A model generated the notes under the pieces. That model was not told the origin of the DNA, searched no databases, and saw only the letters and a list, made by a program, of their open reading frames with translations. A stretch of 37,186 bases of DNA from a virus. The position numbers and the translations under genes are program-made. The stretch lies in IMG/VR virus record IMGVR_UViG_3300022890_000009, positions 1 to 37,186 of that record; one strand, written 5' to 3'. The first letter of the stretch is position 1. Each line of letters starts with the position of its first letter. Positions 6,724-37,186 of this stretch are shown one piece after another.

Positions 6724-6814
6724 GTCCCAACAAGCAAAATTAAGCAGACCACCAGAATTCGGCGCAAAGTAAATTTAAGGGTATCGCTGGTGGCTCCTTA
6801 TTCAGGCGTTATAT
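6724..6814 (-). repeat. attC-like site 1
   Basis: A 91-bp imperfect palindrome after the methyltransferase gene. On the minus strand it runs from ATATAAC to GTTGGGAC. The inner arms CCACCAG (6749-6755) and CTGGTGG (6787-6793) are perfectly complementary, with flanking AATAAG/CTTAATT pairing. The R'' end belongs to a 14-bp inverted repeat (GTTATATTTGCGCC at 6808-6821, complement at 7399-7412) that flanks the methyltransferase cassette. Confidence 0.65.
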
Positions 6815-6876
6815 TTGCGCCAAAAACGTCGGCCTATCAAGTTTATATCCTTCATCGGCACTCGCTTCCGGCTCGT

Positions 6877-7377
6877 TTAAATTGCTAATTTCAGCTGGTT
6901 CATTCTTTCAACTAGGCAAATTGTATCATTATGGTCTCCATTATGGCAAACCAAGCAAACGGCTATTTTTTCAAATCCTCGCGAACGTCCTAGTCCAACG
7001 CTATCATATCCATAGTGCAGTATCAGCCCACCAGGGTTTAAAACATTTATCATTTTATCTTTAATTTTCCGAAGAGATCCAAAATATTTCCCATTGTATT
7101 TTTCTCTTGATTTCCTCAAGTTGTATGGAGGATCAAAAATTATTGTGTCAAACTTTTCACCATCCCAGGTTTTTAAAAACTCATAAGCATCCATACAATA
7201 ATCTGGATTCACGTCTAGATCTAGGTCAACTCTTATTTCATCAACATTCAGCCTCGTTTTACCTGCAAACAAATTCAACACTTTACCAGTGGCCCATTTT
7301 TCAGTCCACTTTCTAAGGTCTACCTGTTCAAAGGTAAATTTCTTTGGCGGCTGGTGTAAGTAAGTAAAATCTATCAA
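6877..7377 (-). CDS. SAM-dependent methyltransferase with DPPY motif (cassette gene)
   Basis: 166 residues with a TTG start preceded by CGGAG. Motif I appears as VLNLFAGKTRLN followed by an acidic strand end (IRVDLDLD). The catalytic motif FDPPYN is at about residue 104, with basic residues after it (KSREKYNGKY). N-P-G-G near residue 133 is the usual strand before the last helix. DPPY is typical of N6-adenine or N4-cytosine methyltransferases acting on DNA, though no target-recognition domain is visible. It occupies one cassette flanked by a perfect 14-bp inverted repeat. It could protect phage DNA from host restriction. Confidence 0.75.
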   Translation of the reverse strand: MIDFTYLHQPPKKFTFEQVDLRKWTEKWATGKVLNLFAGKTRLNVDEIRVDLDLDVNPDYCMDAYEFLKTWDGEKFDTIIFDPPYNLRKSREKYNGKYFGSLRKIKDKMINVLNPGGLILHYGYDSVGLGRSRGFEKIAVCLVCHNGDHNDTICLVERMNQLKLAI

Positions 7378-7405
7378 TTCTTGTACTCCGTTAGTTCTGG
7401 CGCAA

Positions 7406-7470
7406 ATATAACAAGCTAATCAACCTGAATTCAAACGTCCTGTTTCAATCAGGTTATCATAGCGTTAGGA
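7406..7470 (-). repeat. attC-like site 2
   Basis: 65 bp. Cores are ATATAAC (7406-7412) and GTTAGGA (7464-7470). Inner arms AACCTGA (7422-7428) and TCAGGTT (7449-7455) pair perfectly, and an AAGC/GCG asymmetry sits next to the cores. The stop codon of the following gene lies inside the site, as is common for integron cassettes. Confidence 0.72.
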
Positions 7471-7685
7471 GTCTCCCAATAAGGGTCTTCTTTTGGCGTA
7501 GGCGCATCGATTGGGCGGCACTCCTCTGAGTAGGCAACCATTTCGCTATCCGCAGTTACGCAAATCCCAGTCTTTCCCATGTAGATGTGTTCAACGATTG
7601 TTCGACATTCACCGTCCCAAAGATGTTGTAGATCAGCGTCTTGATCCATTGTTTTTAAAAGTTCGATTGCTTGTTTAACCTTCAT
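7449..7685 (-). CDS. Small acidic hypothetical cassette protein, 78 residues
   Basis: Starts MKVKQAIELLKTMDQDAD. The start at 7685 is preferred because TTAGGAGAATT precedes it. The longer frame to 7754 only translates the attC-like site. It contains helical N-terminus, then a CRTIVEH...GICV beta-rich region and a proline-rich end. No family is recognised. The SD overlaps the R' core (GTTAGGAG), so recombination at this site would swap genes while keeping the ribosome binding site. Cassette flanks are GTTAGGAG (7464-7471) and its complement (7690-7697). Confidence 0.6.
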   Translation of the reverse strand: MKVKQAIELLKTMDQDADLQHLWDGECRTIVEHIYMGKTGICVTADSEMVAYSEECRPIDAPTPKEDPYWETPNAMIT

Positions 7686-7690
7686 AATTC

Positions 7691-7778
7691 TCCTAACCAG
7701 CGCGTTGAGATTTACGGTGACAACGCCCGTCGTTTTAGTTGTGTTTGTGAGCACCGAAACTCACGCTAGTCGTTATGT
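7691..7778 (-). repeat. attC-like site 3
   Basis: 88 bp between cores TCCTAAC (7691-7697) and GTTATGT (7772-7778). The arms pair as TAAC..GCG..TGAG.TTT.CGGTG, with CGGTG (7715-7719) and CACCG (7752-7756) innermost. The loop contains an 18-base stretch nearly identical to part of the gene at 11011-11406. Confidence 0.65.
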
Positions 7779-7884
7779 GTATTTACAGGGAGAGAGCGGT
7801 TCGTGTTGACTTCCATCTTTGCCCACTCTCAGCATGTCAACTTCAGCCAGGTTATAACACCCTCCCCGTGTAAATACACATAAC
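7772..7884 (-). mobile_element. Mini cassette with no convincing gene
   Basis: About 100 bp bounded by a perfect 16-bp inverted repeat, GTTATGTGTATTTACA (7772-7787) and its complement (7869-7884). A second repeat, GTTGAC/GTCAAC, lies inside. A short frame reads MLRVGKDGSQHEPL to a stop at the R'' core, and could reach 51 codons (to 7928) only by translating the neighbouring attC-like site. I regard it as non-coding or coding for a peptide of about 20-25 residues. Confidence 0.5.
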
Positions 7885-7947
7885 AAATCGTTCAACTCTG
7901 AACTCAAACGCTTCGCTTTTTTCGTCATGTTAACTCCACCGTTATAC
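7878..7947 (-). repeat. attC-like site 4
   Basis: 70 bp. Cores ACATAAC (7878-7884) and GTTATAC (7941-7947). The left arm reads TAACAAATCGTTCAACTCTGA on the plus strand and aligns with the complement of the right arm at TAAC, GTT.AAC and TGA, with unpaired bases on one side only, as in integron sites. Confidence 0.6.
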
Positions 7948-8181
7948 CACCTTAAATCCACAATTTCTCAAGGCGGCTTTATCCATCATATTAGGCCACG
8001 AATCGGGCCATTTCAAATAACATACAACATTATGTTTTGTGTCTTCAGCGCTCAGCTGCCAGCCCTCGCCAGTATCATGTGCTACTAAAATACAATCTTC
8101 TAGTGGTATAACATTATGTTGCAAGGGAACGCAAACGCGCTCCGGTTTTTCCCACGTAGGGTGTATAAATTTACCAACCAT
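7942..8181 (-). CDS. Hypothetical 79-residue cassette protein with attC-encoded N-terminus
   Basis: Start at 8181 follows AGGAGGACGTAATT, a strong SD. Residues 1-23 are translated from attC-like site 5 and include EKPERVCVPLQHNV. The cassette-specific part then reads IPLEDCILVAHDTGEGWQL and ends in a compact domain with KWPDSWPNM. No known family. Its stop lies inside attC-like site 4. The cassette flanks are GTTATACCACC (7941-7951) and AGTGGTATAAC (8102-8112), matching at 10 of 11 bases. Confidence 0.62.
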   Translation of the reverse strand: MVGKFIHPTWEKPERVCVPLQHNVIPLEDCILVAHDTGEGWQLSAEDTKHNVVCYLKWPDSWPNMMDKAALRNCGFKVV

Positions 8182-8225
8182 AATTACGTCCTCCTGTTTG
8201 CGCCCCCTGAACATGGGCGTTAGGC
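8106..8225 (-). repeat. attC-like site 5, long and leader-encoding
   Basis: 120 bp between GTATAAC (8106-8112) and GTTAGGC (8219-8225), the latter a perfect GTTRRRY core. Arms share ATGTT and TAAC. Internally it has GGGAACGCAAACGC (8125-8138) and CTCCTGTTT (8191-8199), both nearly repeated in site 8. The minus strand holds the SD and ATG of the next gene, so the site is translated. Confidence 0.62.
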
Positions 8226-9029
8226 AACCTTCTTATTGTAGGCCGCCGGTCTTGCCCATTTTCGAGCAAGTTTTTTCCATTCGTCTGAGTATTGTTTTTT
8301 ATTCGCACCTTGGTATAGTTGGCAAAAAGGGAAATATCCAAGTTCATATACTCGCTCCAACCTTCTTTCTGCATTTGTGATAGTTTCGCCATTAAAGCCG
8401 ATCATCACATAGCATCTTTTTTTGTATTGCGGAATCCCGTCTAATATTTTTGATGCTCTTTTAATGTTTTTTATCGATCCGGTAGTATCACAAGCAAACC
8501 ACAATTCCTTAAATGTTATGGAATCAAATAAATCCCGGTGCCAATCTTTCAAAAGCATTGCATCTAATCCACCACCAAAAACAGCCGCTTTTGATTGCCG
8601 TTTCAACATTTCAAAAACTGACCGGATATGCTGTTCACTACATGCAAGTAAATTATTGTCTTGGACTATCCAACCATTTTTTACTTTTAATTCCCTTATA
8701 GATCCTTCACGTTTCGAAGCAAAACACCATTTGCATTTTTTAGGACAACCACGGCTTGTAATTGTTACACCCTTTTTTATAAACAATCCAGGGGTAAATT
8801 CACCGCCCGGATCACCAAAGGCAGGGCCGCCAATTTGAACGTCATCAAAGTATCTTCCCCACGATTCAAGTAATTCATAAGCACGTGGAATATCCCACGT
8901 GAAAGCAACACTAATTTTTACAGGAATTGAACTATCTTTCGGATGGAAAAGATCGGGATATCCGACAAACGCAAGCTTATCTTTTGGAATCCATTTATTT
9001 CTATTTGGAAAAACTCTTATCATCAACAT
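8220..9029 (-). CDS. Radical SAM cassette protein
   Basis: About 267-269 residues. An N-terminal part with DLFHP and a FGDPGGEF loop precedes the cluster motif SRGCPKKCKWCFA (CxxxCxxC, about residues 95-102). Later segments AVFGGGLDAML and VMIGFNGETI resemble the strands of a radical SAM barrel. Proteins of this type occur in phages, but the reaction is unknown. Two ATGs are possible (9029, 9023), and AGGA suits the second. The gene fills a cassette with perfect 11-bp flanks (GTTAGGCAACC at 8219-8229, complement at 9040-9050). It is the second radical SAM gene in this phage and is not closely similar to the one at 5688-6347. Confidence 0.75.
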   Translation of the reverse strand: MLMIRVFPNRNKWIPKDKLAFVGYPDLFHPKDSSIPVKISVAFTWDIPRAYELLESWGRYFDDVQIGGPAFGDPGGEFTPGLFIKKGVTITSRGCPKKCKWCFASKREGSIRELKVKNGWIVQDNNLLACSEQHIRSVFEMLKRQSKAAVFGGGLDAMLLKDWHRDLFDSITFKELWFACDTTGSIKNIKRASKILDGIPQYKKRCYVMIGFNGETITNAERRLERVYELGYFPFCQLYQGANKKQYSDEWKKLARKWARPAAYNKKVA

Positions 9030-9043
9030 TCATCCTATCGGTT

Positions 9044-9102
9044 GCCTAACCACGCAATGCAGCCGAAAGGAAAACGCTTCGGCTGATCGGTGGTCGTTAT
9101 AT
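9044..9102 (-). repeat. attC-like site 6 (59 bp)
   Basis: The clearest site. GCCTAAC (9044-9050) fits RYYYAAC exactly, and its complement GTTAGGC fits GTTRRRY. The other core is GTTATAT (9096-9102). Inner arms CAGCCGAA (9060-9067) and TTCGGCTG (9078-9085) pair over 8 bp, and the CCAC/GTGG boxes also pair with extra bases on one side. Its length equals the classical 59-base element. Confidence 0.78.
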
Positions 9103-9381
9103 TCCTAATGCCGTCTTGATCTTATTCCTAACATCACGCCGTCCGTCTTCAATTAATGCGTCGTGCATGGATTGCGATCCGCAAAAATGTCTTCTCATAT
9201 AGTAAGCAAGCCCTTTTGGGATAAATATCTTGAGTCCTTCATCTGATGATAAGCAATCTTTTTCGCGGGCAATACAAAAAGGATCAACGTCATCAAGGTC
9301 AACTTTGCTAATAAAAAATCCCGCGGGTATCTCCATGGTTTGGTCTTGAACAGAAACACAATTTCTATATTCATCTTTCAT
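9097..9381 (-). CDS. Hypothetical 94-residue cassette protein
   Basis: Starts MKDEYRNCVSVQDQTME. GGAG lies about 10 nt upstream, next to the R' core. The middle reads DPFCIAREKDCLSSDEG and then IPKGLAYYMRRHFCG, with four Cys but no regular zinc motif. The C-terminus is a basic helix ending NKIKTALGI. No family recognised. It lies between sites 6 and 7, and its stop is inside site 6. Confidence 0.6.
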   Translation of the reverse strand: MKDEYRNCVSVQDQTMEIPAGFFISKVDLDDVDPFCIAREKDCLSSDEGLKIFIPKGLAYYMRRHFCGSQSMHDALIEDGRRDVRNKIKTALGI

Positions 9382-9395
9382 ATTTTAATGCTCCA

Positions 9396-9443
9396 TATAA
9401 CATCAAGATCAAGAGGGCAAGCCTCTTATCTTGGGTGTTATGT
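9396..9443 (-). repeat. attC-like site 7 (48 bp)
   Basis: Cores ATATAAC (9396-9402) and GTTATGT (9437-9443). Two stacked stems, CAAGAT/ATCTTG (9404-9409, 9428-9433) and AGAGG/CCTCT (9412-9416, 9422-9426), are separated by a small bulge. The arrangement is the standard short attC hairpin. Confidence 0.75.
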
Positions 9444-9446
9444 GGC

Positions 9447-9755
9447 CTAAAGCGACATCACAAGCATACGCTCGCTTTCAAGGCTTTTCAATACCTCAGA
9501 TCTTTCGCTATGCCACCATTCATTTAATTTATCAGCATATTTAATTGTTTTGCCCGTTCCGGCCTCCAACTTTGCTAACGTTGGCTGGGTAATTCCCAGT
9601 CGCCTTGCAAGCTCATTTTGTGTAATAGCCAAGTACATCCTGCATCGTCTAATCCGGTGTCCCGGCCACACAACAATGGCATTGACTGGGAACGTAAACG
9701 CTACTGGTTTTTCCCCGGTTTTTTCACTTACGCCAAAGTTTATTTCATCACACAT
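9447..9755 (-). CDS. XRE-type helix-turn-helix regulator with attC-encoded N-terminus
   Basis: 102 residues. Residues about 40-75 form a Cro/C1-type HTH (ITQNELARRLGITQPTLAKLEAG), followed by a short helical tail. The first 27 residues, including EKPVAFTFPVNAIVV, are read from attC-like site 8. AAACAGGAGACCAAT provides the SD inside the site. The HTH fold suggests a DNA-binding repressor or an antitoxin, but no toxin partner is next to it. Cassette flanks are GTTATGTGGCC (9437-9447) and GGCCACACAAC (9664-9674), 10 of 11 matching. It is the only Cro/C1-like protein in the phage. Confidence 0.75.
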   Translation of the reverse strand: MCDEINFGVSEKTGEKPVAFTFPVNAIVVWPGHRIRRCRMYLAITQNELARRLGITQPTLAKLEAGTGKTIKYADKLNEWWHSERSEVLKSLESERMLVMSL

Positions 9756-9796
9756 ATTGGTCTCCTGTTTACGTCACGTTATGCCCGGCGTTATAC
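9668..9796 (-). repeat. attC-like site 8, long and leader-encoding
   Basis: 129 bp from ACACAAC (9668-9674) to GTTATAC (9790-9796). The arms align as AAC..GGCAT..AAC. GGGAACGTAAACGC (9688-9701) and CTCCTGTTT (9762-9770) repeat the internal motifs of site 5. The start codon of the XRE gene lies within it. Confidence 0.62.
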
Positions 9797-10042
9797 ATTC
9801 ACACGGCTTTTAAAGTAATCATCTATTTCATTCAGAAGCCTACCACTGCAATCACCATTAGATTGTACTACCATCCAAAGTAAATCCGCCGCGCTCCCGT
9901 TCGTCGCTTCGTTTATTACACGGTCATATAATTTGTCAAATTCTTCAAAGCATTTAGTTGTCGGGTAAATGCCATTATCAGGGTTGTCCAGCATGTTTGA
10001 AATAATCCTGGTTCTTTCTGTTATAAAGTCTTCTTTATTCAT
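9791..10042 (-). CDS. Hypothetical 83-residue cassette protein
   Basis: Starts MNKEDFITERTRIISNML, preceded by GAGGAGC. It is an acidic helical protein with a Trp-Met segment (DLLWMVVQSNG) and a C-terminus of SRVNV just before the R'' core. No family recognised. The cassette lies between sites 8 and 9, with an 8-bp flank GTTATACA (9790-9797) and its complement (10058-10065). Confidence 0.6.
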   Translation of the reverse strand: MNKEDFITERTRIISNMLDNPDNGIYPTTKCFEEFDKLYDRVINEATNGSAADLLWMVVQSNGDCSGRLLNEIDDYFKSRVNV

Positions 10043-10058
10043 CTAAAGCTCCTCACTT

Positions 10059-10117
10059 GTATAACATAATTATACAGCGGACGATAAACGCCCGCCGCTG
10101 ATAATCGAGCGTTAGAA
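10059..10117 (-). repeat. attC-like site 9 (59 bp)
   Basis: GTATAAC (10059-10065) and GTTAGAA (10111-10117). Inner arms CAGCGG/CCGCTG pair exactly, and ATTAT/ATAAT pair next to them. GCG precedes the right core, as in sites 2 and 5. Confidence 0.72.
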
Positions 10118-10120
10118 CGC

Positions 10121-10420
10121 TTAATAAGTTTTATCATCAATCACCTTGAAATCTCTATCTTCGGCAAGTATGCACATATCATATCCATTGTTTTTCTGAT
10201 ACCAGCTTCCAATTCTAATGACTTTTCCGCCGCGTCTTCCGTAAAGTTGGTGTCTATCATGCAAGTAAATATATTCGTTTGGTTTTACGTCCTTTGATTT
10301 TGCGTAATTACGTGCTTGAGTATCTGTCCCGGCAAGTATAAAAAGCGTTCTAACAACAGTATTAACCGGAATTGAAACGCGCTCTTTTTTAGTGGAGTTT
10401 GTAGCTTTTTCTTTGTTCAT
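10121..10420 (-). CDS. Hypothetical 99-residue cassette protein with attC-encoded N-terminus
   Basis: Starts MNKEKATNST. Residues 1-22 include KKERVSIPVNTVV and are read from attC-like site 10. The cassette-specific remainder (from RTLFILAGTDTQARN) has a beta-rich middle with HDRHQLYGRRGGKVIRIG and an acidic end. No in-frame start exists after the core until late in the gene, so the leader must be part of the protein. The cassette flanks GTTAGAACGC (10111-10120) and GCGTTCTAAC (10345-10354) are a perfect 10-bp inverted repeat. Function unknown. Confidence 0.6.
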   Translation of the reverse strand: MNKEKATNSTKKERVSIPVNTVVRTLFILAGTDTQARNYAKSKDVKPNEYIYLHDRHQLYGRRGGKVIRIGSWYQKNNGYDMCILAEDRDFKVIDDKTY

Positions 10421-10475
10421 TGTTATCTCTCATTCATTGTTTAATGTTTCAATCCCGTTATACTCACCGTTATAC
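10348..10475 (-). repeat. attC-like site 10, long and leader-encoding
   Basis: 128 bp from TTCTAAC (10348-10354) to GTTATAC (10469-10475). The arms align as TAAC...AGTAT.AAC.GG on both sides. The start codon of the 99-residue gene lies inside. It resembles sites 5 and 8 in length and in the encoded peptide. Confidence 0.6.
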
Positions 10476-10619
10476 ATTCGCACGTTTCCACAACTTTGAC
10501 AATAATTCTTCAGCATCGCGCAACATTTGAATTCCATCGTCAAGCAACACATCATATTCAGCATCCCAATCACGTGTACCTTTTTTGTAATGCTTTGGTA
10601 TTCTGTCCATACTTTTCAT
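10470..10619 (-). CDS. Small helical hypothetical protein, 49 residues
   Basis: Starts MKSMDRIPKHYKK. The ATG overlaps the stop of the DUF551-like gene as ATGA, with CGGAGGAAAG as SD, so the start at 10619 is firm. The earlier in-frame ATG at 10652 would lie inside the upstream gene. It is an acidic and leucine-rich helix (MLRDAEELLSKLW) ending KRANV just before site 10. It forms a two-gene cassette with its upstream neighbour. Confidence 0.62.
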   Translation of the reverse strand: MKSMDRIPKHYKKGTRDWDAEYDVLLDDGIQMLRDAEELLSKLWKRANV

Positions 10620-10966
10620 CTTTCCTCCGGGGCTTTGGGTAATGAATGCCAACGAACCGGACTGTACTCGTCATCAATTTCTATTTCGCCTTCCCATTTA
10701 CCAGCATTCCGATTATACCAGATATTCCCATAACAATTACCGAACAACCATTCGTTATTGCTGACAATAGACCGACCGCCGATCCATACAAACTGGTCAT
10801 TGTCAAGGAAAACTATTTCATCCATATCCGGCAGTTTATCATCTACTGGAATCCACTGGTTTAATAATTCCACGTGCGCTGCGCCAAGCATCTTAATTAA
10901 TTCTTTCTTTGGGAATTTCAACATTTCTTTTTCCCACTCATCACCAAATAATTTATATTCACTCAT
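10616..10966 (-). CDS. DUF551-like protein
   Basis: 116 residues. From residue 38 it reads QWIPVDDKLPDMDEIVFL, then a Trp-containing middle (GNIWYNRNAGKWEGE), and ends PVRWHSLPKAPE. This W-I-P-V...L-P pattern with a final W.P-L-P..P is that of the DUF551 domain, frequent in phages and without a known function. A 37-residue helical N-terminus precedes it. The start MSEYKLFGD follows GAGGGTATT. It is coupled to a 49-residue gene. Confidence 0.72.
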   Translation of the reverse strand: MSEYKLFGDEWEKEMLKFPKKELIKMLGAAHVELLNQWIPVDDKLPDMDEIVFLDNDQFVWIGGRSIVSNNEWLFGNCYGNIWYNRNAGKWEGEIEIDDEYSPVRWHSLPKAPEER

Positions 10967-11010
10967 AATACCCTCACCCTGCTTTAAAATGGTAAAGTTT
11001 CTTCGGCTTG

Positions 11011-11406
11011 CTATTCATACAATACCTGAAAATCTCCTTGCCGACGATGGTCTAATTTATATTTTAACCAGGCATGAAATTCTTCCGGCTCTGGATATTT
11101 GTTTTCTATCAAACTCTTCATTAAACACCACTTTGATTTAGTGACCCTGTTCTTGTCAATCATAAACCTCATGCACCAAACCCGCCGGCGTAAAAACTCT
11201 ACTGGAAGCCTACCCACATACACCGCCGCCATATTGCCACGAATTCCGTGATGCTTTAAAACTGCTACCATTCTCCAATCCTGCTTCCAAGCTCTTTGTT
11301 TGATAATGCCGGCCGTTTTTTCTTTTACAAAGCATTCATTACAAACAAACTCGCCGTCCTGGACAACGCCTGTCGTTTTATTTTCGTCACATTTCGAGCA
11401 TTTCAT
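11011..11406 (-). CDS. Zinc-ribbon protein of 131 residues
   Basis: N-terminal MKCSKCDENKTTG...FVCNECFV gives two CxxC pairs about 16 residues apart, a small treble-clef or ribbon. The rest is basic and helical (RGNMAAVYVGRLPVEFLRRRVWC, DKNRVTKSKWC) and could bind nucleic acid. ACAGGAGC precedes the start. Eighteen bases in the ribbon region (11363-11380) match the loop of attC-like site 3 with one difference. No family recognised. Confidence 0.6.
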   Translation of the reverse strand: MKCSKCDENKTTGVVQDGEFVCNECFVKEKTAGIIKQRAWKQDWRMVAVLKHHGIRGNMAAVYVGRLPVEFLRRRVWCMRFMIDKNRVTKSKWCLMKSLIENKYPEPEEFHAWLKYKLDHRRQGDFQVLYE

Positions 11407-11451
11407 TCAAGCTCCTGTTTTAAGCATACCTGCCGCTTTTTACTGCCCAAC

Positions 11452-11838
11452 CTAAACCATGTTATCTAATATACGATTTACCCTTTCGTCATTCCACCTC
11501 GTGTGGTGAAACTTTTGGAAATGGCAAGTATGACAGACGGCTATTAAATCGCTCCACTCTTCCATCCCATATTTACGGTATTTCTTGTGGTGTACTTCTT
11601 TGTATGGTTCAAGTTTACATACCTGGCACTTTATCTTTTTTCTTAAAAATTTCTTTCTGATCCGCTTCCACAATGGGGACTTTAAATATTCTGAATATGA
11701 ATTAAAATCTGTTTTATATTTATCCCTCTGTTCAGGCTTGATTATTGTTTTGCATTTTACTTTCTTCCCGCACTTCTTTTTCTTTGGTAATAATGCATTT
11801 ACTCTGTTTTTAAACTCTCTTATACTTACTTGCTTCAT
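11452..11838 (-). CDS. HNH endonuclease
   Basis: 128 residues. A basic N-terminus (KKKKCGKKVKCK) leads to YLKSPLWKRIRKKFL and then the HNH fold: CQVC, VHHKKY and LIAVCHTCHFQKFHH, with the zinc CxxC pairs and catalytic His in place. Free-standing HNH nucleases of this size act as homing enzymes or as packaging partners of terminase. It is far from terminase here. The gene directly follows a highly structured 280-nt stretch, which suggests a homing or RNA-linked element. SD is weak (GTTGGATAAGT). Confidence 0.8.
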   Translation of the reverse strand: MKQVSIREFKNRVNALLPKKKKCGKKVKCKTIIKPEQRDKYKTDFNSYSEYLKSPLWKRIRKKFLRKKIKCQVCKLEPYKEVHHKKYRKYGMEEWSDLIAVCHTCHFQKFHHTRWNDERVNRILDNMV

Positions 11839-11840
11839 AC

Positions 11841-12121
11841 TTATCCAACTTCAGTTTGTGGTTTCAGAGCATAGAAAGCCTTCCTGAATAAAAACTCAGT
11901 TGCTTTCCATGCAAGGGTTATCCAACTTTCAGATGCGGCCCCTTCACACAGGCTGATTATTAATAAGGATGAATCAGCTCGTAAATTCAAGGCTCCTTAT
12001 TGCCCTGCGTCCTGGTCTTACTTTCGCCTTCAGTTACACTTTGACGCATTCCCCTGGTAGTGTCGATTATTGATAATATCCCCAGTGTCTTTCCATTGTC
12101 GGTATCCCGTCGAATATTATC
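11841..12121 (-). ncRNA. Structured RNA candidate upstream of the HNH gene
   Basis: The 329-base gap 11839-12167 holds no convincing ORF but several strong pairings: GATAATATCC/GAATATTATC (12072-12081, 12112-12121, one mismatch), TGCGTC/GACGCA (12006-12011, 12043-12048), GCTGATT/AATCAGC (11952-11958, 11972-11978), and a long hairpin GCATAGAAAGC/GCTTTCCATGC (11869-11879, 11902-11912) with CTGA/TCAG inside. A near-direct repeat TTATCCAACTTCAG occurs at 11841-11854 and 11918-11932. I could not fit group I or group II intron core motifs. Confidence 0.5.
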
Positions 12122-12167
12122 TACTATAGATTCGTGTAGCTATTTAAAAGCTAAATTTATTCCTTAA

Positions 12168-12428
12168 TTATAATTTTGTAGATGAATAGTATATATCTGG
12201 CTCTGCTCCGACACAATATTTGTTTCCATCAACGGTAATTTCTATAGTATCGTTCATCAACGCATAATCGCCATTTTCATTGTATAGTCTGGCAAATTCC
12301 AGCGCCGCCGCCTCTTCGTGGTTAGCATATATTTCGCGCTCTTCGCCATCATCATCTATTACCTTGAATGACTTACATTTACATGGCTCAAAAACATAAT
12401 TGCCACATTTTTTACAGAAAGCACCCAT
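12168..12428 (-). CDS. Small zinc-ribbon protein, 86 residues
   Basis: Starts MGAFCKKCGNYVFEPCKCKSF, a CxxC...CxC metal site at residues 5-18. AAGGAGAATGTT is a strong SD that fixes the start at 12428. The rest is acidic (IDDDGEEREI, EEAAALEFARLY) and beta-rich, with GNKYCVGAEPDIY near the end. No family recognised. It is preceded by a nested stem structure that could be its leader. Confidence 0.62.
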   Translation of the reverse strand: MGAFCKKCGNYVFEPCKCKSFKVIDDDGEEREIYANHEEAAALEFARLYNENGDYALMNDTIEITVDGNKYCVGAEPDIYYSSTKL

Positions 12429-12472
12429 AACATTCTCCTTAAAATATAAAATCCCCAAAAGCTAAATGGAGT

Positions 12473-12569
12473 GGCCTCTATAAGGCGGGTATACCTTTAA
12501 AGAGCAAAAAGCATAGACCACCCCCATTTAATTCCTGGGGAATACTCTTTAATCAGCCACCCGCTGGCC
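12473..12569 (-). ncRNA. Nested-stem RNA leader candidate
   Basis: Three fully nested perfect stems: GGCC (12473-12476, 12566-12569), GCGGGT/ACCCGC (12485-12490, 12559-12564) and TTAAAGAG/CTCTTTAA (12497-12504, 12545-12552), plus an internal ATTCC/GGAAT hairpin. An alternative pairing, TAAATGG with CCATTTA just outside, could compete. It lies between the tRNA and the 86-residue gene on the minus strand. I do not recognise a known family. Confidence 0.5.
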
Positions 12570-12587
12570 GTGTATGTCAAAAATCTG

Positions 12588-12662
12588 TTGCGCGGACGGG
12601 ATTCGAACCCGTGACCTTCAGGTTATGAGCCTGACGAGCTGACCGAACTGCTCCACCGCACG
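12588..12662 (-). tRNA. tRNA-Met(CAU), initiator-like
   Basis: 75 nt without an encoded CCA. D stem GAGC/GCTC, anticodon stem TCAGG/CCTGA around CTCATAA (anticodon CAT), T arm ACGGG-TTCGAAT-CCCGT, acceptor CGTGCGG/CCGCGCA. Position 1:72 is a C-A mismatch, the hallmark of bacterial initiator tRNA. The anticodon stem has AGG/CCT where initiators have three G-C pairs. The rest closely resembles tRNA-fMet (GGTGGAGCAG, GCTCGTC, CTCATAACC). Confidence 0.92.
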
Positions 12663-12701
12663 AAAACAATATAAGCATATAAATATCCGGATGCAAATTT
12701 A

Positions 12702-12821
12702 TCATAGGTTTTCAACAATTGGGCTGATTTGCGGAGGCCCGTCAAGCCGCTTACAAGCTTTAGCATGTCTCATTGCCGCAAGCCTGGCAAGTGCTCTGTT
12801 TTTATTTTTTTTAAATTTCAT
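12702..12821 (-). CDS. Tiny basic protein, 39 residues
   Basis: Reads MKFKKNKNRALARLAAMRHAK, then a Lys/Arg region and a Pro-rich end. Composition (about a third Lys/Arg) is unlike random sequence and suits a nucleic-acid-binding peptide. No good SD is seen (only GCACGTT), so translation is uncertain. It fills most of the gap between the tRNA and the next cassette gene. The rest of 12663-12848 shows nothing else I can support. Confidence 0.35.
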   Translation of the reverse strand: MKFKKNKNRALARLAAMRHAKACKRLDGPPQISPIVENL

Positions 12822-12848
12822 AACGTGCACGGTCTGTATATTCTTATG

Positions 12849-13172
12849 TTAGCAAGCCCAATTTGGGCTAAATGCACTTGCAGTTTCGGCATTCTTGCAA
12901 TGCTCAATAGCTTTATTGAAATATGGCTTTTCCCCGTCTGAATACTCACCATCTTTTAATCTTTCAGTTTTATATTCTTCGTAAGAGAGTCCACGAAATT
13001 CATTTCCGGTTCTTTTTAAAATTACCATAATATTTACCGCAACTCGCCCACATTCCCATTTCTTTAAAACAGAATCACTGGGGAATTTTGTGTAGTCACC
13101 CGGCTTGCTAACATTGGCATTAACTCCGACCGTTTCTGCAGTCTCTTTTTTCGTGGTTCTATCTTCAGTCAT
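12849..13172 (-). CDS. Hypothetical 107-residue cassette protein with attC-encoded N-terminus
   Basis: Start MTEDRTTKK at 13172, after CTGGAGAATTTCC. A longer frame to 13289 reads through the site and the next gene and is rejected. Residues 1-20 (including KKETAETVGVNANV) come from the attC-like site. The cassette part has KKWECGRVAVNIMVILKRTGNEFRG, then an acidic, Tyr-rich helix, and ends SPNWAC. No family recognised. The flanks GTTAGCAAGCC (12848-12858) and GGCTTGCTAAC (13102-13112) are a perfect 11-bp inverted repeat. Confidence 0.62.
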   Translation of the reverse strand: MTEDRTTKKETAETVGVNANVSKPGDYTKFPSDSVLKKWECGRVAVNIMVILKRTGNEFRGLSYEEYKTERLKDGEYSDGEKPYFNKAIEHCKNAETASAFSPNWAC

Positions 13173-13234
13173 GGAAATTCTCCAGTTTGTTAGTATATCA
13201 AAATTTACGCGGCGCGTTATGCCCGGCGTTAGCC
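13106..13234 (-). repeat. attC-like site 11, long and leader-encoding
   Basis: 129 bp between TGCTAAC (13106-13112) and GTTAGCC (13228-13234). Arms align as TAAC..GGCAT.AAC on both sides, the same pattern as site 8. SD and ATG of the 107-residue gene are inside. Confidence 0.62.
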
Positions 13235-13494
13235 TATTTCTTAATTTCTTTGCCACACCAAACGCAAACATCTTTGATATATATTTCATCTTTTAATGCT
13301 TCCAAATATTCTATAGTTATTCCCTCACCCTTAACCACATCTGGAAGTATTCTTGAATAGCGTGGACTAAATAAATGTTTATTGCCGCCATTATAGCATT
13401 TTGAATCCAATCCATTGTGGTATTCAAATACAAAAAGGGCTAACATTGCAATGCAAGCGACAAAAAACGCCGCTCGGGTTAGGTGTTTTTTCAT
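13234..13494 (-). CDS. Small membrane-anchored cassette protein with C-terminal CxxC
   Basis: 86 residues. MKKHLTRAAFFVACIAM plus LALFVFEY forms a basic start and one membrane helix or uncleaved signal. The exported or cytoplasmic tail has YNGGNKHLFSPRY and ends in VCVWCGKEIKK, a CxxC pair. The first 17 residues are read from attC-like site 12, in a different codon phase from the other leaders. AAAGGATAAATT is the SD. The topology suggests an envelope protein. Function unknown. Confidence 0.6.
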   Translation of the reverse strand: MKKHLTRAAFFVACIAMLALFVFEYHNGLDSKCYNGGNKHLFSPRYSRILPDVVKGEGITIEYLEALKDEIYIKDVCVWCGKEIKK

Positions 13495-13537
13495 AATTTA
13501 TCCTTTTGTTTTTTGCGCCTGATCGCTGGTGTTATAC
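13438..13537 (-). repeat. attC-like site 12
   Basis: 100 bp between GGCTAAC (13438-13444) and GTTATAC (13531-13537). The GGCTAAC core is the exact complement of GTTAGCC at 13228-13234, closing the cassette of the membrane protein. Internal pairing is weaker (TAAC and AGCGA only), so this is the least certain site of the array. Confidence 0.45.
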
Positions 13538-13761: not shown

Positions 13762-13989
13762 ATGAAAAGAGAAGATTGCTATACAATGGCAGAAGCTGAA
13801 GAAGTAACTGGATACTCTCGGTCTACAATATACAAATTGCTCTTAGATGGTAAACTATCGAGATACAGTGAAGCCGGGAGGCAGGGGCTGGTGCTATTTT
13901 TAAAGACCGATATTGACAAATTAAAAAAAGTTGAAAAGAATAAGTATCGTTTAATTGAGAGAACCATAACCGAAAAGAGGGTAAAATAA
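13762..13989 (+). CDS. Excisionase/MerR-type helix-turn-helix protein
   Basis: 75 residues. YTMAEAEEVTGYSRSTIYKL is a helix-turn-helix of the excisionase (winged) kind, followed by a wing-like segment (GKLSRYSEAG..GLVLFLKTDIDKL) and a basic tail (IERTITEKRVK). Start follows AACAGGGAATTAAAA. As first gene of the rightward operon and next to the operator, it probably regulates the divergent promoters. No integrase accompanies it, so a true excisionase role is unlikely. Confidence 0.75.
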   Translation: MKREDCYTMAEAEEVTGYSRSTIYKLLLDGKLSRYSEAGRQGLVLFLKTDIDKLKKVEKNKYRLIERTITEKRVK

Positions 13990-18484: not shown

Positions 18485-18493
18485 ATTGTGAAG

Positions 18494-18568
18494 TGGTGCT
18501 GGATGGATTTGAACCATCGGCCGCCTGCGTATCAGGCAGGAACTCTAACCGGACTGAGTTACAGCACC
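18494..18568 (-). tRNA. tRNA-Ile(GAU)
   Basis: 75 nt. Acceptor GGTGCTG/CAGCACC with discriminator A, D stem ACTC/GAGT, anticodon stem CCTGC/GCAGG around CTGATAC (anticodon GAT), T arm GATGG-TTCAAAT-CCATC. CCA is not encoded. All stems pair perfectly. Confidence 0.95.
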
Positions 18569-25775: not shown

Positions 25776-27944
25776 TTAAGCCTCGTATACTAATCTAAAT
25801 TTAATATTAAAACTTCCGGGCTGCCTGCGTGTTTCGGTCACTATAAAATATAAATCAGCCCACGCTTTTCCATAAGGAAGTCTAACCGTATCGCTAAATT
25901 TAATTATATCGCCTGACCTTAAATTACTCTTAAGCATGTTTTTGATTCTACATTCACCAATGATCTTAGGTGAGCCGGATATATTATCATAATACTTTGC
26001 AAAGCTTGCATTGGCCGTTGCTCCGGATGTTACCTTTGCTGCGGTTATAAAATCAAGATTTCCCTCGACTATGTTTTCATTTGTTGCATCTGGAAAATAA
26101 TCCGTTCGGCTTGCATTTGTAAAAGTCTCTGATTTCCTATACGAATTATTAGCCGGGTGCCTCTGATAATTTAAACTATACTTAGTAATTATTTCGCTAA
26201 GATCGGTCAAGCCTAGTTTCAAATCGTCATAATCATCGGCATCTAATGTATGCGTGACATCACCAGCCGCATAGGTATCATGCACCCATATATATTGCGC
26301 TCCTGCATTTCCAGAAGCATCAGAGTCGAATACAGGAAGCATAATAAAGCATCCTTCATATTGTATCTGCTCTAAAATTTCCTGTAAGTTTCTTGGCTCT
26401 AATTGCCACCAATGACAAGTCCAGCCGGATCTTGCAGAATTAAGATCATCTGTAAGATATTGATTAGTTGCTGAAAAACCCTTCATATAATCGTTATCGT
26501 AATCAAAGTCCGTAAACCGCTTTAATAAATCTCTATGTATTTCGTGCGGGAGATCTGCAATACCTCCATCATTATCTGTATAGCTCTGAGATAATCCGTC
26601 TCTTGAACAATAGGCTGTTTTGAATTCCTTAACAAATGTCTCGGCCGCCTCTGCTTCGTTTGCATAATCTAAAGCTAAATCGACTTTCAAATAAACGTCA
26701 TAAATATAAATATATCCATCCAGATCATCAACGTTAACGAATACTGCATCTAATGGAATTTCGTCATCAATTTTATAATCATTGGCCGCATATTCTACCG
26801 AGTAATCATGTGACCAGTAATCGACCAAAGTACTCCCCGGAACTCCGTCATCGGTATCGTGAGATACAATACTGTCAGATTCACCAAACAATGTTGATTC
26901 AAGCCTTGCCAAGTCTGGATTCGGAGCACCGCCGCCGCCAGAGTCAAGCCCAGCCCTTGCTTTTACATACAAAGTCAAAGCGATTCCCTTGCCAATCGGG
27001 TTTTCTATCTCTTCCACAAGCCAGTTTCGTGTGATCGATCCCTGTTCACTCTTATAAGAATAAGTTGTTTCATTGCTAGAACCGTCCGAATCTTGATCGT
27101 AAGCCCTTTCCGTATATGTAAAATCATCACCCGTTTTCTCTGCTGTAGGTCTTATATAAGCTGTCCTTGTTACCGGCTTATCCACTCCAAACAAATTAGT
27201 AGATCCAAGTGAAACGGTCACAGTACCGCCATTTGTTAGCGGTAAAAACTTGTCTAAATTGCTGTCGTAAAACGCTACCGAAGCCGAAACCGGCGAACCG
27301 TAACTCTGAGCAGGCAAGAAATAAATATTATCAAGCTTGATCGCAAAGGGCATCGGATAATAAAAGCCCGCTGAATAAAAGTTCGCTGCAGTATCGGGAT
27401 CAAAATCACCATACGCCAATGGGATAAAAATATCACTCGTAATAGTTGGGTTTAGTGAATTCTTAATAGAGGCCTTAGCAGTAGGAACCTTAATTCCGTA
27501 GGCCGGATCATAGCCCTCAACCACTAAGCCGATTTCATTGTCAGACGGATAGACTATATTTTTTAGAAATCCTTCATAAACCTGTACTGCATTTGCAAGC
27601 GTAGAAGTGTCAGCAGAATGCGTATAAATTTTAACCTTTCTATTTAGATACTTTTTCGAACCGCCGTACAGCTCCTCTGCCAGGGTTTTATTCTTGAATA
27701 TATTACTACACAAAATTTCGACTTCAGAAACAGCCGACTTGGAATTGGCTATGTCGATACTCTCTATAACTTCACCCCAATCTTTTACAAGCCCGTAAAA
27801 TTGATTGGAGTCTATTATTATATCCTTCTCAGCGATCCCTAAATAGCTCGACCCGGCATCGTAATAAAGCATCATAAACCAGTTCTCTGCAAACGCAGAA
27901 TTTTTGGCATTATATTTGTAGTGATCTGTTAATAATAAACTCAT
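25776..27944 (-). CDS. Large tail-tip/hub protein, 722 residues
   Basis: Follows the tape measure by a 4-nt overlap, where the distal tail or hub protein is expected. N-terminal residues 1-170 have a distal-tail-like beta region (WGEVIESIDIANSKSAVSEV, VYEGFLKNIVYPSDN). The middle contains a linker rich in Gly/Asp, and the C-terminal 250 residues include LKLGLTDLSEIITKYSLNYQ and LRSGDIIKFSDTVRLPYG, reminiscent of hub or tail-opening proteins. No enzymatic motif seen. The assignment is mainly positional. Confidence 0.68.
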   Translation of the reverse strand: MSLLLTDHYKYNAKNSAFAENWFMMLYYDAGSSYLGIAEKDIIIDSNQFYGLVKDWGEVIESIDIANSKSAVSEVEILCSNIFKNKTLAEELYGGSKKYLNRKVKIYTHSADTSTLANAVQVYEGFLKNIVYPSDNEIGLVVEGYDPAYGIKVPTAKASIKNSLNPTITSDIFIPLAYGDFDPDTAANFYSAGFYYPMPFAIKLDNIYFLPAQSYGSPVSASVAFYDSNLDKFLPLTNGGTVTVSLGSTNLFGVDKPVTRTAYIRPTAEKTGDDFTYTERAYDQDSDGSSNETTYSYKSEQGSITRNWLVEEIENPIGKGIALTLYVKARAGLDSGGGGAPNPDLARLESTLFGESDSIVSHDTDDGVPGSTLVDYWSHDYSVEYAANDYKIDDEIPLDAVFVNVDDLDGYIYIYDVYLKVDLALDYANEAEAAETFVKEFKTAYCSRDGLSQSYTDNDGGIADLPHEIHRDLLKRFTDFDYDNDYMKGFSATNQYLTDDLNSARSGWTCHWWQLEPRNLQEILEQIQYEGCFIMLPVFDSDASGNAGAQYIWVHDTYAAGDVTHTLDADDYDDLKLGLTDLSEIITKYSLNYQRHPANNSYRKSETFTNASRTDYFPDATNENIVEGNLDFITAAKVTSGATANASFAKYYDNISGSPKIIGECRIKNMLKSNLRSGDIIKFSDTVRLPYGKAWADLYFIVTETRRQPGSFNIKFRLVYEA

Positions 27945-36855: not shown

Positions 36856-37106
36856 AACAAGCTCTTTTCAAATGGTTTATTATCAGGCGTAAACTTTGTA
36901 CCATCGCCATGTTCTTTTAATACATCTTTGTTCGGCGTTTCATAATCCTGCTTGGACCAGCCTTCGCCCTTCAGGATAAATGGACAAGTCTGATATAGCC
37001 GCCTTGTCAAACCGCCGCACCTGCATCTGAAATTATCAAGCTCATTCAGTTCGATGTTTTCTGTTATATTTGCACAGTTTGTGCAGCGTACGTCAATTAA
37101 CGGCAT
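36852..37106 (-). CDS. FmdB-family zinc-ribbon protein
   Basis: 84 residues from the ATG at 37106 (GGGAGAACG as SD). A TTG-like upstream frame to 37127 is less likely. MPLIDVRCTNCANITENIEL, then CRCGGLTRRLYQTCPFILKG and EGWSKQDY match the FmdB regulatory-protein pattern (CxxC...CxCGG, F.LKG.GW...DY). Phages often carry such ribbons next to head genes. The start lies in the contig overlap, and the same bases occur at 1-47. Confidence 0.78.
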   Translation of the reverse strand: MPLIDVRCTNCANITENIELNELDNFRCRCGGLTRRLYQTCPFILKGEGWSKQDYETPNKDVLKEHGDGTKFTPDNKPFEKSLF

Positions 37107-37186
37107 CGTTCTCCCATATTTCACCAATAATTAAACCTTTTAAATAGTCCAAGCTAAGACAACCGTCAACGGCGTATTCTTTGCCC
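37060..37186. repeat. Contig-end direct repeat, second copy
   Basis: Exact copy of bases 1-127 (see that entry). It indicates circular closure of the contig. Confidence 0.95.

Follow-up and report, generated by a model that had tools for sequence, protein, structure and literature searches.

Clusters of attC sites without an integrase (CALINs) have been described in virulent phages by Qi et al. (2023), who found that IntI1 recombined five of six phage attCs; TJE1, of which two adjacent attCs recombine with attI1, and PH101 are phages with attCs shown to recombine (PMC9892861). The CALINs of TJE1, P12002L, PH101 and MW202573 (PMC9892861) lie in tailed phages and are accompanied by small genes and DNA methyltransferases, and the array reported here resembles them in all these respects, with attC model scores comparable to those of published phage CALINs. 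The sequence-only reading of this DNA had proposed that it reveals a new route of cassette spread, through phages, a route already known from the work of Qi et al. What is added here is a large array carried by a complete phage genome, together with a rule of direction, the genes running opposite to attC.

Results

The window (the whole stretch of DNA analysed, a 37,186-base virus record from IMG/VR) is the genome of a tailed phage of about 37 kb. An identical 127-bp repeat occupies its two ends (positions 1-127 and 37060-37186), and a contig from another sample (L001) is 100% identical to it over 8.8 kb spanning the terminal junction, which indicates a complete, circularly closed genome. Its assignment to tailed phages follows from the presence of terminase, portal, major head protein, Erf-like annealing protein, SSB and NinG genes. 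A family search of the complete genome found no tyrosine recombinase (PF00589), as had been proposed from the sequence, and also no IntI and no serine recombinase (PF00239). The array is known from one assembly, contig L001 covering other parts of the genome, and a search with the capsid protein matched the same phage only. A tRNA-Ile (GAT) lies elsewhere in the genome, at 18493-18568. At the divergent promoter region to the right of the array, a helix-turn-helix protein (13762-13989) has weak excisionase-family matches, in a genome without integrase.

Twelve palindromic junctions of the form TAAC/CAAC...GTTA lie between 6725 and 13537, so that all of the palindromes noticed earlier are present. 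They are listed below with their R'' / R' boxes and, where relevant, the results of a broader structural scorer, of a covariance model (R2) and of a strict test for canonical attCs.

6725-6814, plus: S0, attC-like, left end of the array; TCCCAAC / GTTATAT; scorer 14.0 with plus as top strand, 12.6 with minus; R pairing weak, tentative
7406-7470, plus: S1, attC; ATATAAC / GTTAGGA; R2 35.1 bits (E 6e-7); strict test positive
7691-7778, plus: S2, attC; TCCTAAC / GTTATGT; scorer 16.1 with plus as top strand, 0 with minus
7878-7947, plus: S3, attC-like, the weakest; ACATAAC / GTTATAC; scorer 9.7; GTT/AAC pairs flank the base at position 16
8106-8225, plus: S4, attC with long loop; GTATAAC / GTTAGGC; scorer 18.5; start of gene 7942-8181 inside
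9044-9102, plus: S5, attC; GCCTAAC / GTTATAT; R2 17.3 bits; strict test positive
9395-9443, plus: S6, attC; ATATAAC / GTTATGT; R2 16.6 bits; strict test positive; fold z -6.9
9668-9796, plus: S7, attC with long loop; ACACAAC / GTTATAC; scorer 16.2, 7.0 on the other strand; start of gene 9447-9755 inside
10059-10117, plus: S8, attC; GTATAAC / GTTAGAA; R2 21.8 bits (E 0.002); strict test positive
10348-10475, plus: S9, attC with long loop; TTCTAAC / GTTATAC; scorer 18.6, the window maximum; start of gene 10121-10420 inside
13106-13234, plus: S10, attC with long loop; TGCTAAC / GTTAGCC; scorer 14.4, 9.2 on the other strand; start of gene 12849-13172 inside
13438-13537, plus: S11, attC, right end of the array; GGCTAAC / GTTATAC; scorer 17.3; start of gene 13234-13494 inside

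Five of the twelve are long (100-129 bp). R'' ends in AAC and R' begins with GTT at every site, while the outer three R positions pair poorly. The cores had been said to fit RYYYAAC / GTTRRRY, which is not strictly the case, several R' boxes reading GTTATAT, GTTATGT or GTTATAC; departures from GTTRRRY occur elsewhere, in one TJE1 attC (GTTATGC) and in many bacterial attCs. The folding of attC leaves one base on the R''-L'' arm unpaired (PMC2727003), and at all 12 sites such an extrahelical base, flanked by pairs, stands at position 16 counted from the start of R'', the same position as in attC-aadA7 and in bacterial attCs. Between R' of S2 and R'' of S3, a 23-bp inverted repeat (7772-7884, 91% identity, 67 nt between the arms) fills an interval without a convincing gene and resembles an independent hairpin element.

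In the strict test, position 16 was taken from attC-aadA7, having also been spotted by eye in the window before coding. It gave exactly four matches in 37 kb, at the four best sites of the sequence-only reading (7406-7470, 9044-9102, 9395-9443 and 10059-10117), each having plus for its top strand, for a chance expectation of 0.15-0.3; with the unpaired base shifted to other positions from 11 to 23 there was no plus-strand match in the window. Applied to phage TJE1, the same test recovered two attCs, at 1016-1075 and 1462-1519. The broader scorer admits long loops and finds ten sites, two weaker ones bringing the total to twelve. At a cutoff of 16 or more it retains six plus-strand sites in the 6.8-kb array, and with this cutoff the array side of bacterial intI loci (349 kb) yielded 91 sense-strand matches, against nine false ones in non-array bacterial DNA amounting to about 1,100 kb of single strand. 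Regular expressions for strict RYYYAAC/GTTRRRY were discarded, since they proved nearly useless even on true integrons.

Model R2 was trained, independently of the window, on 24 loop-trimmed attCs from bacteria. A covariance-model check had been suggested with attc_4; performed with R2, it ranks the four sites then named first to fourth (35.1, 21.8, 17.3 and 16.6 bits for S1, S8, S5 and S6), all on the plus strand, and the attCs of the M16-3 integron score 38.7, 22.1 and 16.3, those of TJE1 26.5 and 23.3, and those of PH101 27-47. As a short-loop model, R2 detects neither the long sites of the window nor the long attCs of M16-3, and the calls of long sites depend on our own scorer. Single-strand folding was clearly better than in shuffled sequences for the four short sites, with no such gain for the long ones, which consequently rest on arm pairing. 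Over the 12 sites, 79.7% of cells are standard pairs, compared with 64.5% after shuffling (a value reached in 0 of 500 shuffles), changes on both sides affect 34 cells (16.4 when shuffled), and 11 of 16 pairs show compensatory changes. Covariation is 0.405, compared with 0.132 in shuffles, and is lost when partners are slid; this statistic leans towards structure because the sites were picked by a scorer that rewards pairing, a choice that does not affect the R2 result on the short sites. The identification of these sites as attCs is thus supported by their structure, by covariation and by a covariance model trained independently of them.

The genes bounded by these sites, all inverted relative to attC, and the one long attC-free interval are as follows.

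6877-7377, minus: DNA methyltransferase-like cassette gene (phrog_11619, E 6.8e-38)
7449-7685, minus: ORF, cassette gene with no assigned function; RBS overlaps R'' of S2, stop inside S1
7942-8181, minus: cassette gene with no assigned function; stop codon on R' of S3
8220-9029, minus: radical SAM-like cassette gene (PF04055, E 9e-4, below cut-off); stop on R' of S4
9097-9381, minus: cassette gene with no assigned function; stop codon on R' of S5
9447-9755, minus: helix-turn-helix regulator cassette gene (PF01381, E 2e-7)
9791-10042, minus: cassette gene with no assigned function; stop codon on R' of S7
10121-10420, minus: ORF, cassette gene with no assigned function
13234-13494, minus: ORF, cassette gene for a small protein with a hydrophobic N-terminus
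10476-13105, no strand: attC-free interval; several leftward genes, among them an HNH endonuclease (11452-11838) and a DUF551-like gene (10616-10966), and tRNA-Met (CAT) at 12587-12662

At least nine single-gene cassettes are bounded by attCs. That single small genes separate the sites is correct for most intervals and fails for 10470-13228, which holds several genes and a tRNA and is therefore not a single-gene cassette. Twelve attC sites without any encoded recombinase make the array a CALIN, a class defined by two or more attCs within 4 kb and no intI, and ten of the sites fall within 6725-10475; a complete integron has intI and attI, and this genome has no IntI.

The plus strand is the top strand at all 12 sites by structural score, by a small margin (1.4-2.8) at 6725, 7878, 8106 and 10348; among bacterial attCs the sense strand is favoured in 99%. 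The base after R'' is A or C and the base before R' is C or T at every site, as in bacterial attCs, and the minus strand reads the reverse. All cassette genes, including those with family matches (methyltransferase, helix-turn-helix), are on the minus strand. In a standard cassette a single gene and its attC share one sense; the attC/cassette layout recognized earlier therefore holds for the sites but not for the genes, which are mostly single and are inverted relative to attC in 11 of 11 intervals, whereas bacterial arrays gave 57 forward cassettes, four inverted and three ambiguous. Six R' crossover points (G/TTA) fall exactly on the TAA stop of the right-hand gene, one of these being the doubtful ORF 7773-7961, and five genes (7942-8181, 9447-9755, 10121-10420, 12849-13172 and 13234-13494) begin inside attC loops, so that their first codons double as an attC arm. 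This arm encodes a V-x-[VFI]-P-[VL] N-terminus, which makes unrelated proteins look alike at their start; the pattern is common to genes 7942-8181, 9447-9755 and 10121-10420, in the region 8106-10475.

Relatives of the methyltransferase, 58-69% identical, are found in viral contigs and phages without attC, so the cassettes include at least one phage gene. The product of gene 8220-9029 is 42.6% identical to an Alistipes plasmid protein. GC and GC3 of the cassette genes equal those of the phage core and so do not indicate recent import from a different host. No other genome was found in which a different cassette occupies the same attC, and the exact string CGTTATGCCCGGCGTTA gave just two chance matches in viral contigs, both inside genes. 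In viral contigs, the radical SAM, helix-turn-helix and 10121-10420 proteins had no match, and the 9097-9381 protein matched two contigs, both without an attC array, over a short part only. Two cassette proteins had no match in phages, nor did the array DNA match plasmids. Among the phage DNA matches listed for the array region, the matches were located at the tRNA. A scan of terminase-related phage loci (0.95 Mb) revealed no comparable array.

Discussion

We propose, with a probability of about 80%, that this phage carries a CALIN of 12 attCs and at least nine single-gene cassettes, on which a host integrase acts in trans and in which inverted cassettes have been selected. Cassettes would be excised and inserted at G/TT by the integron integrase of a host assumed to carry IntI, the recombining substrate presumably being the folded bottom strand, that is, the phage minus strand. 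Because attC has a fixed direction in the array and transcription of the phage runs leftward, expression would be limited to inverted cassettes, and selection would have filled the array with them. Alternatively, attCs might have been inserted between pre-existing leftward phage genes. An ordinary host cassette would sit antisense to the phage operon, and the inverted layout thus argues against simple import. A bolder version, which we hold to be rather doubtful, is that there exists a phage-specific class of cassettes whose genes run opposite to attC, read from the phage operon and moved by host integrases in trans, the recombining strand being the non-template strand.

The rival that deserves most weight, improbable as we consider it, is that the attCs are inherited relics, the cassettes between them being now immobile and their genes ordinary phage genes. 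The methyltransferase relatives in phages devoid of attC, a cassette GC3 equal to that of the core and the lack of a comparable array in the 0.95 Mb of terminase-related loci are in keeping with it. Decay, however, would erase AAC, GTT and compensatory pairing, which are kept at all 12 sites, and the absence of the array from the nearest phages implies that it was probably gained. Block transfer of ordinary host cassettes from a chromosomal integron by illegitimate recombination would account for single small genes without known function, typical of sedentary integron cassettes, and illegitimate entry is what Qi et al. propose for other phage CALINs (PMC9892861); it is nevertheless quite unlikely, given that cassettes of host arrays lie in the attC sense by 57 to 4 and that every interval here is inverted.

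Two further explanations concern the sites themselves. A divergent class of integrase might require the opposite arm to carry the unpaired base, in which case minus would be the true top strand and the genes would be forward; gene stops do overlap R-type boxes here, as is frequent in forward cassettes, but the base preferences beside both R boxes indicate plus and the TJE1 attCs, with forward genes, score forward, leaving little room for this idea. It is least credible of all that the palindromes resemble attC by chance and serve as intrinsic terminators or as regulatory hairpins. They do sit between co-directional genes, and attCs reportedly contain weak terminators (PMC9892861), yet the invariant AAC/GTT, the constant unpaired position, the covariation and the matches to a bacterial attC model would all remain to be explained, and the start of the next gene within the loop of five sites is unexpected for a terminator.

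Phage-borne attC arrays could swap genes with host integrons, and the uniform inversion seen here suggests that the phage selects which genes fit. The directional rule predicts which cassettes are usable by a phage, and that a host integron promoter would leave the same cassettes silent; if it is general, phages and hosts would use different subsets of one cassette pool.

A search of the open literature turned up no description of inverted cassettes in phages. Published phage CALINs have few sites, in contrast with the 12 sites and uniformly inverted genes of this array. TJE1 has forward genes and attCs that score forward, and PH101, judged from its ORFs, has mixed cassettes, with both forward and inverted genes. 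Two PH101 cassettes (25976-26080 and 27384-27470) share a near-identical leader of about 90 bp after R', ahead of forward ORFs, which is possibly a cassette-borne promoter. By our scorer, MW202573 is inverted, with four sites having minus as top strand among plus genes, evidence that is weaker since the covariance model misses these sites with its filters off. P12002L has one site with plus as top strand between minus genes. The Shewanella phage M16-3 integron (MZ568829) also places an attC array in a phage genome, but with intI and attI of its own and cassettes in the standard orientation. The sedentary chromosomal arrays of Shewanella, Vibrio, Marinomonas and others share with the present array the anatomy of attC and one small gene per cassette, and differ from it in that here IntI is lacking and the genes are inverted relative to attC.
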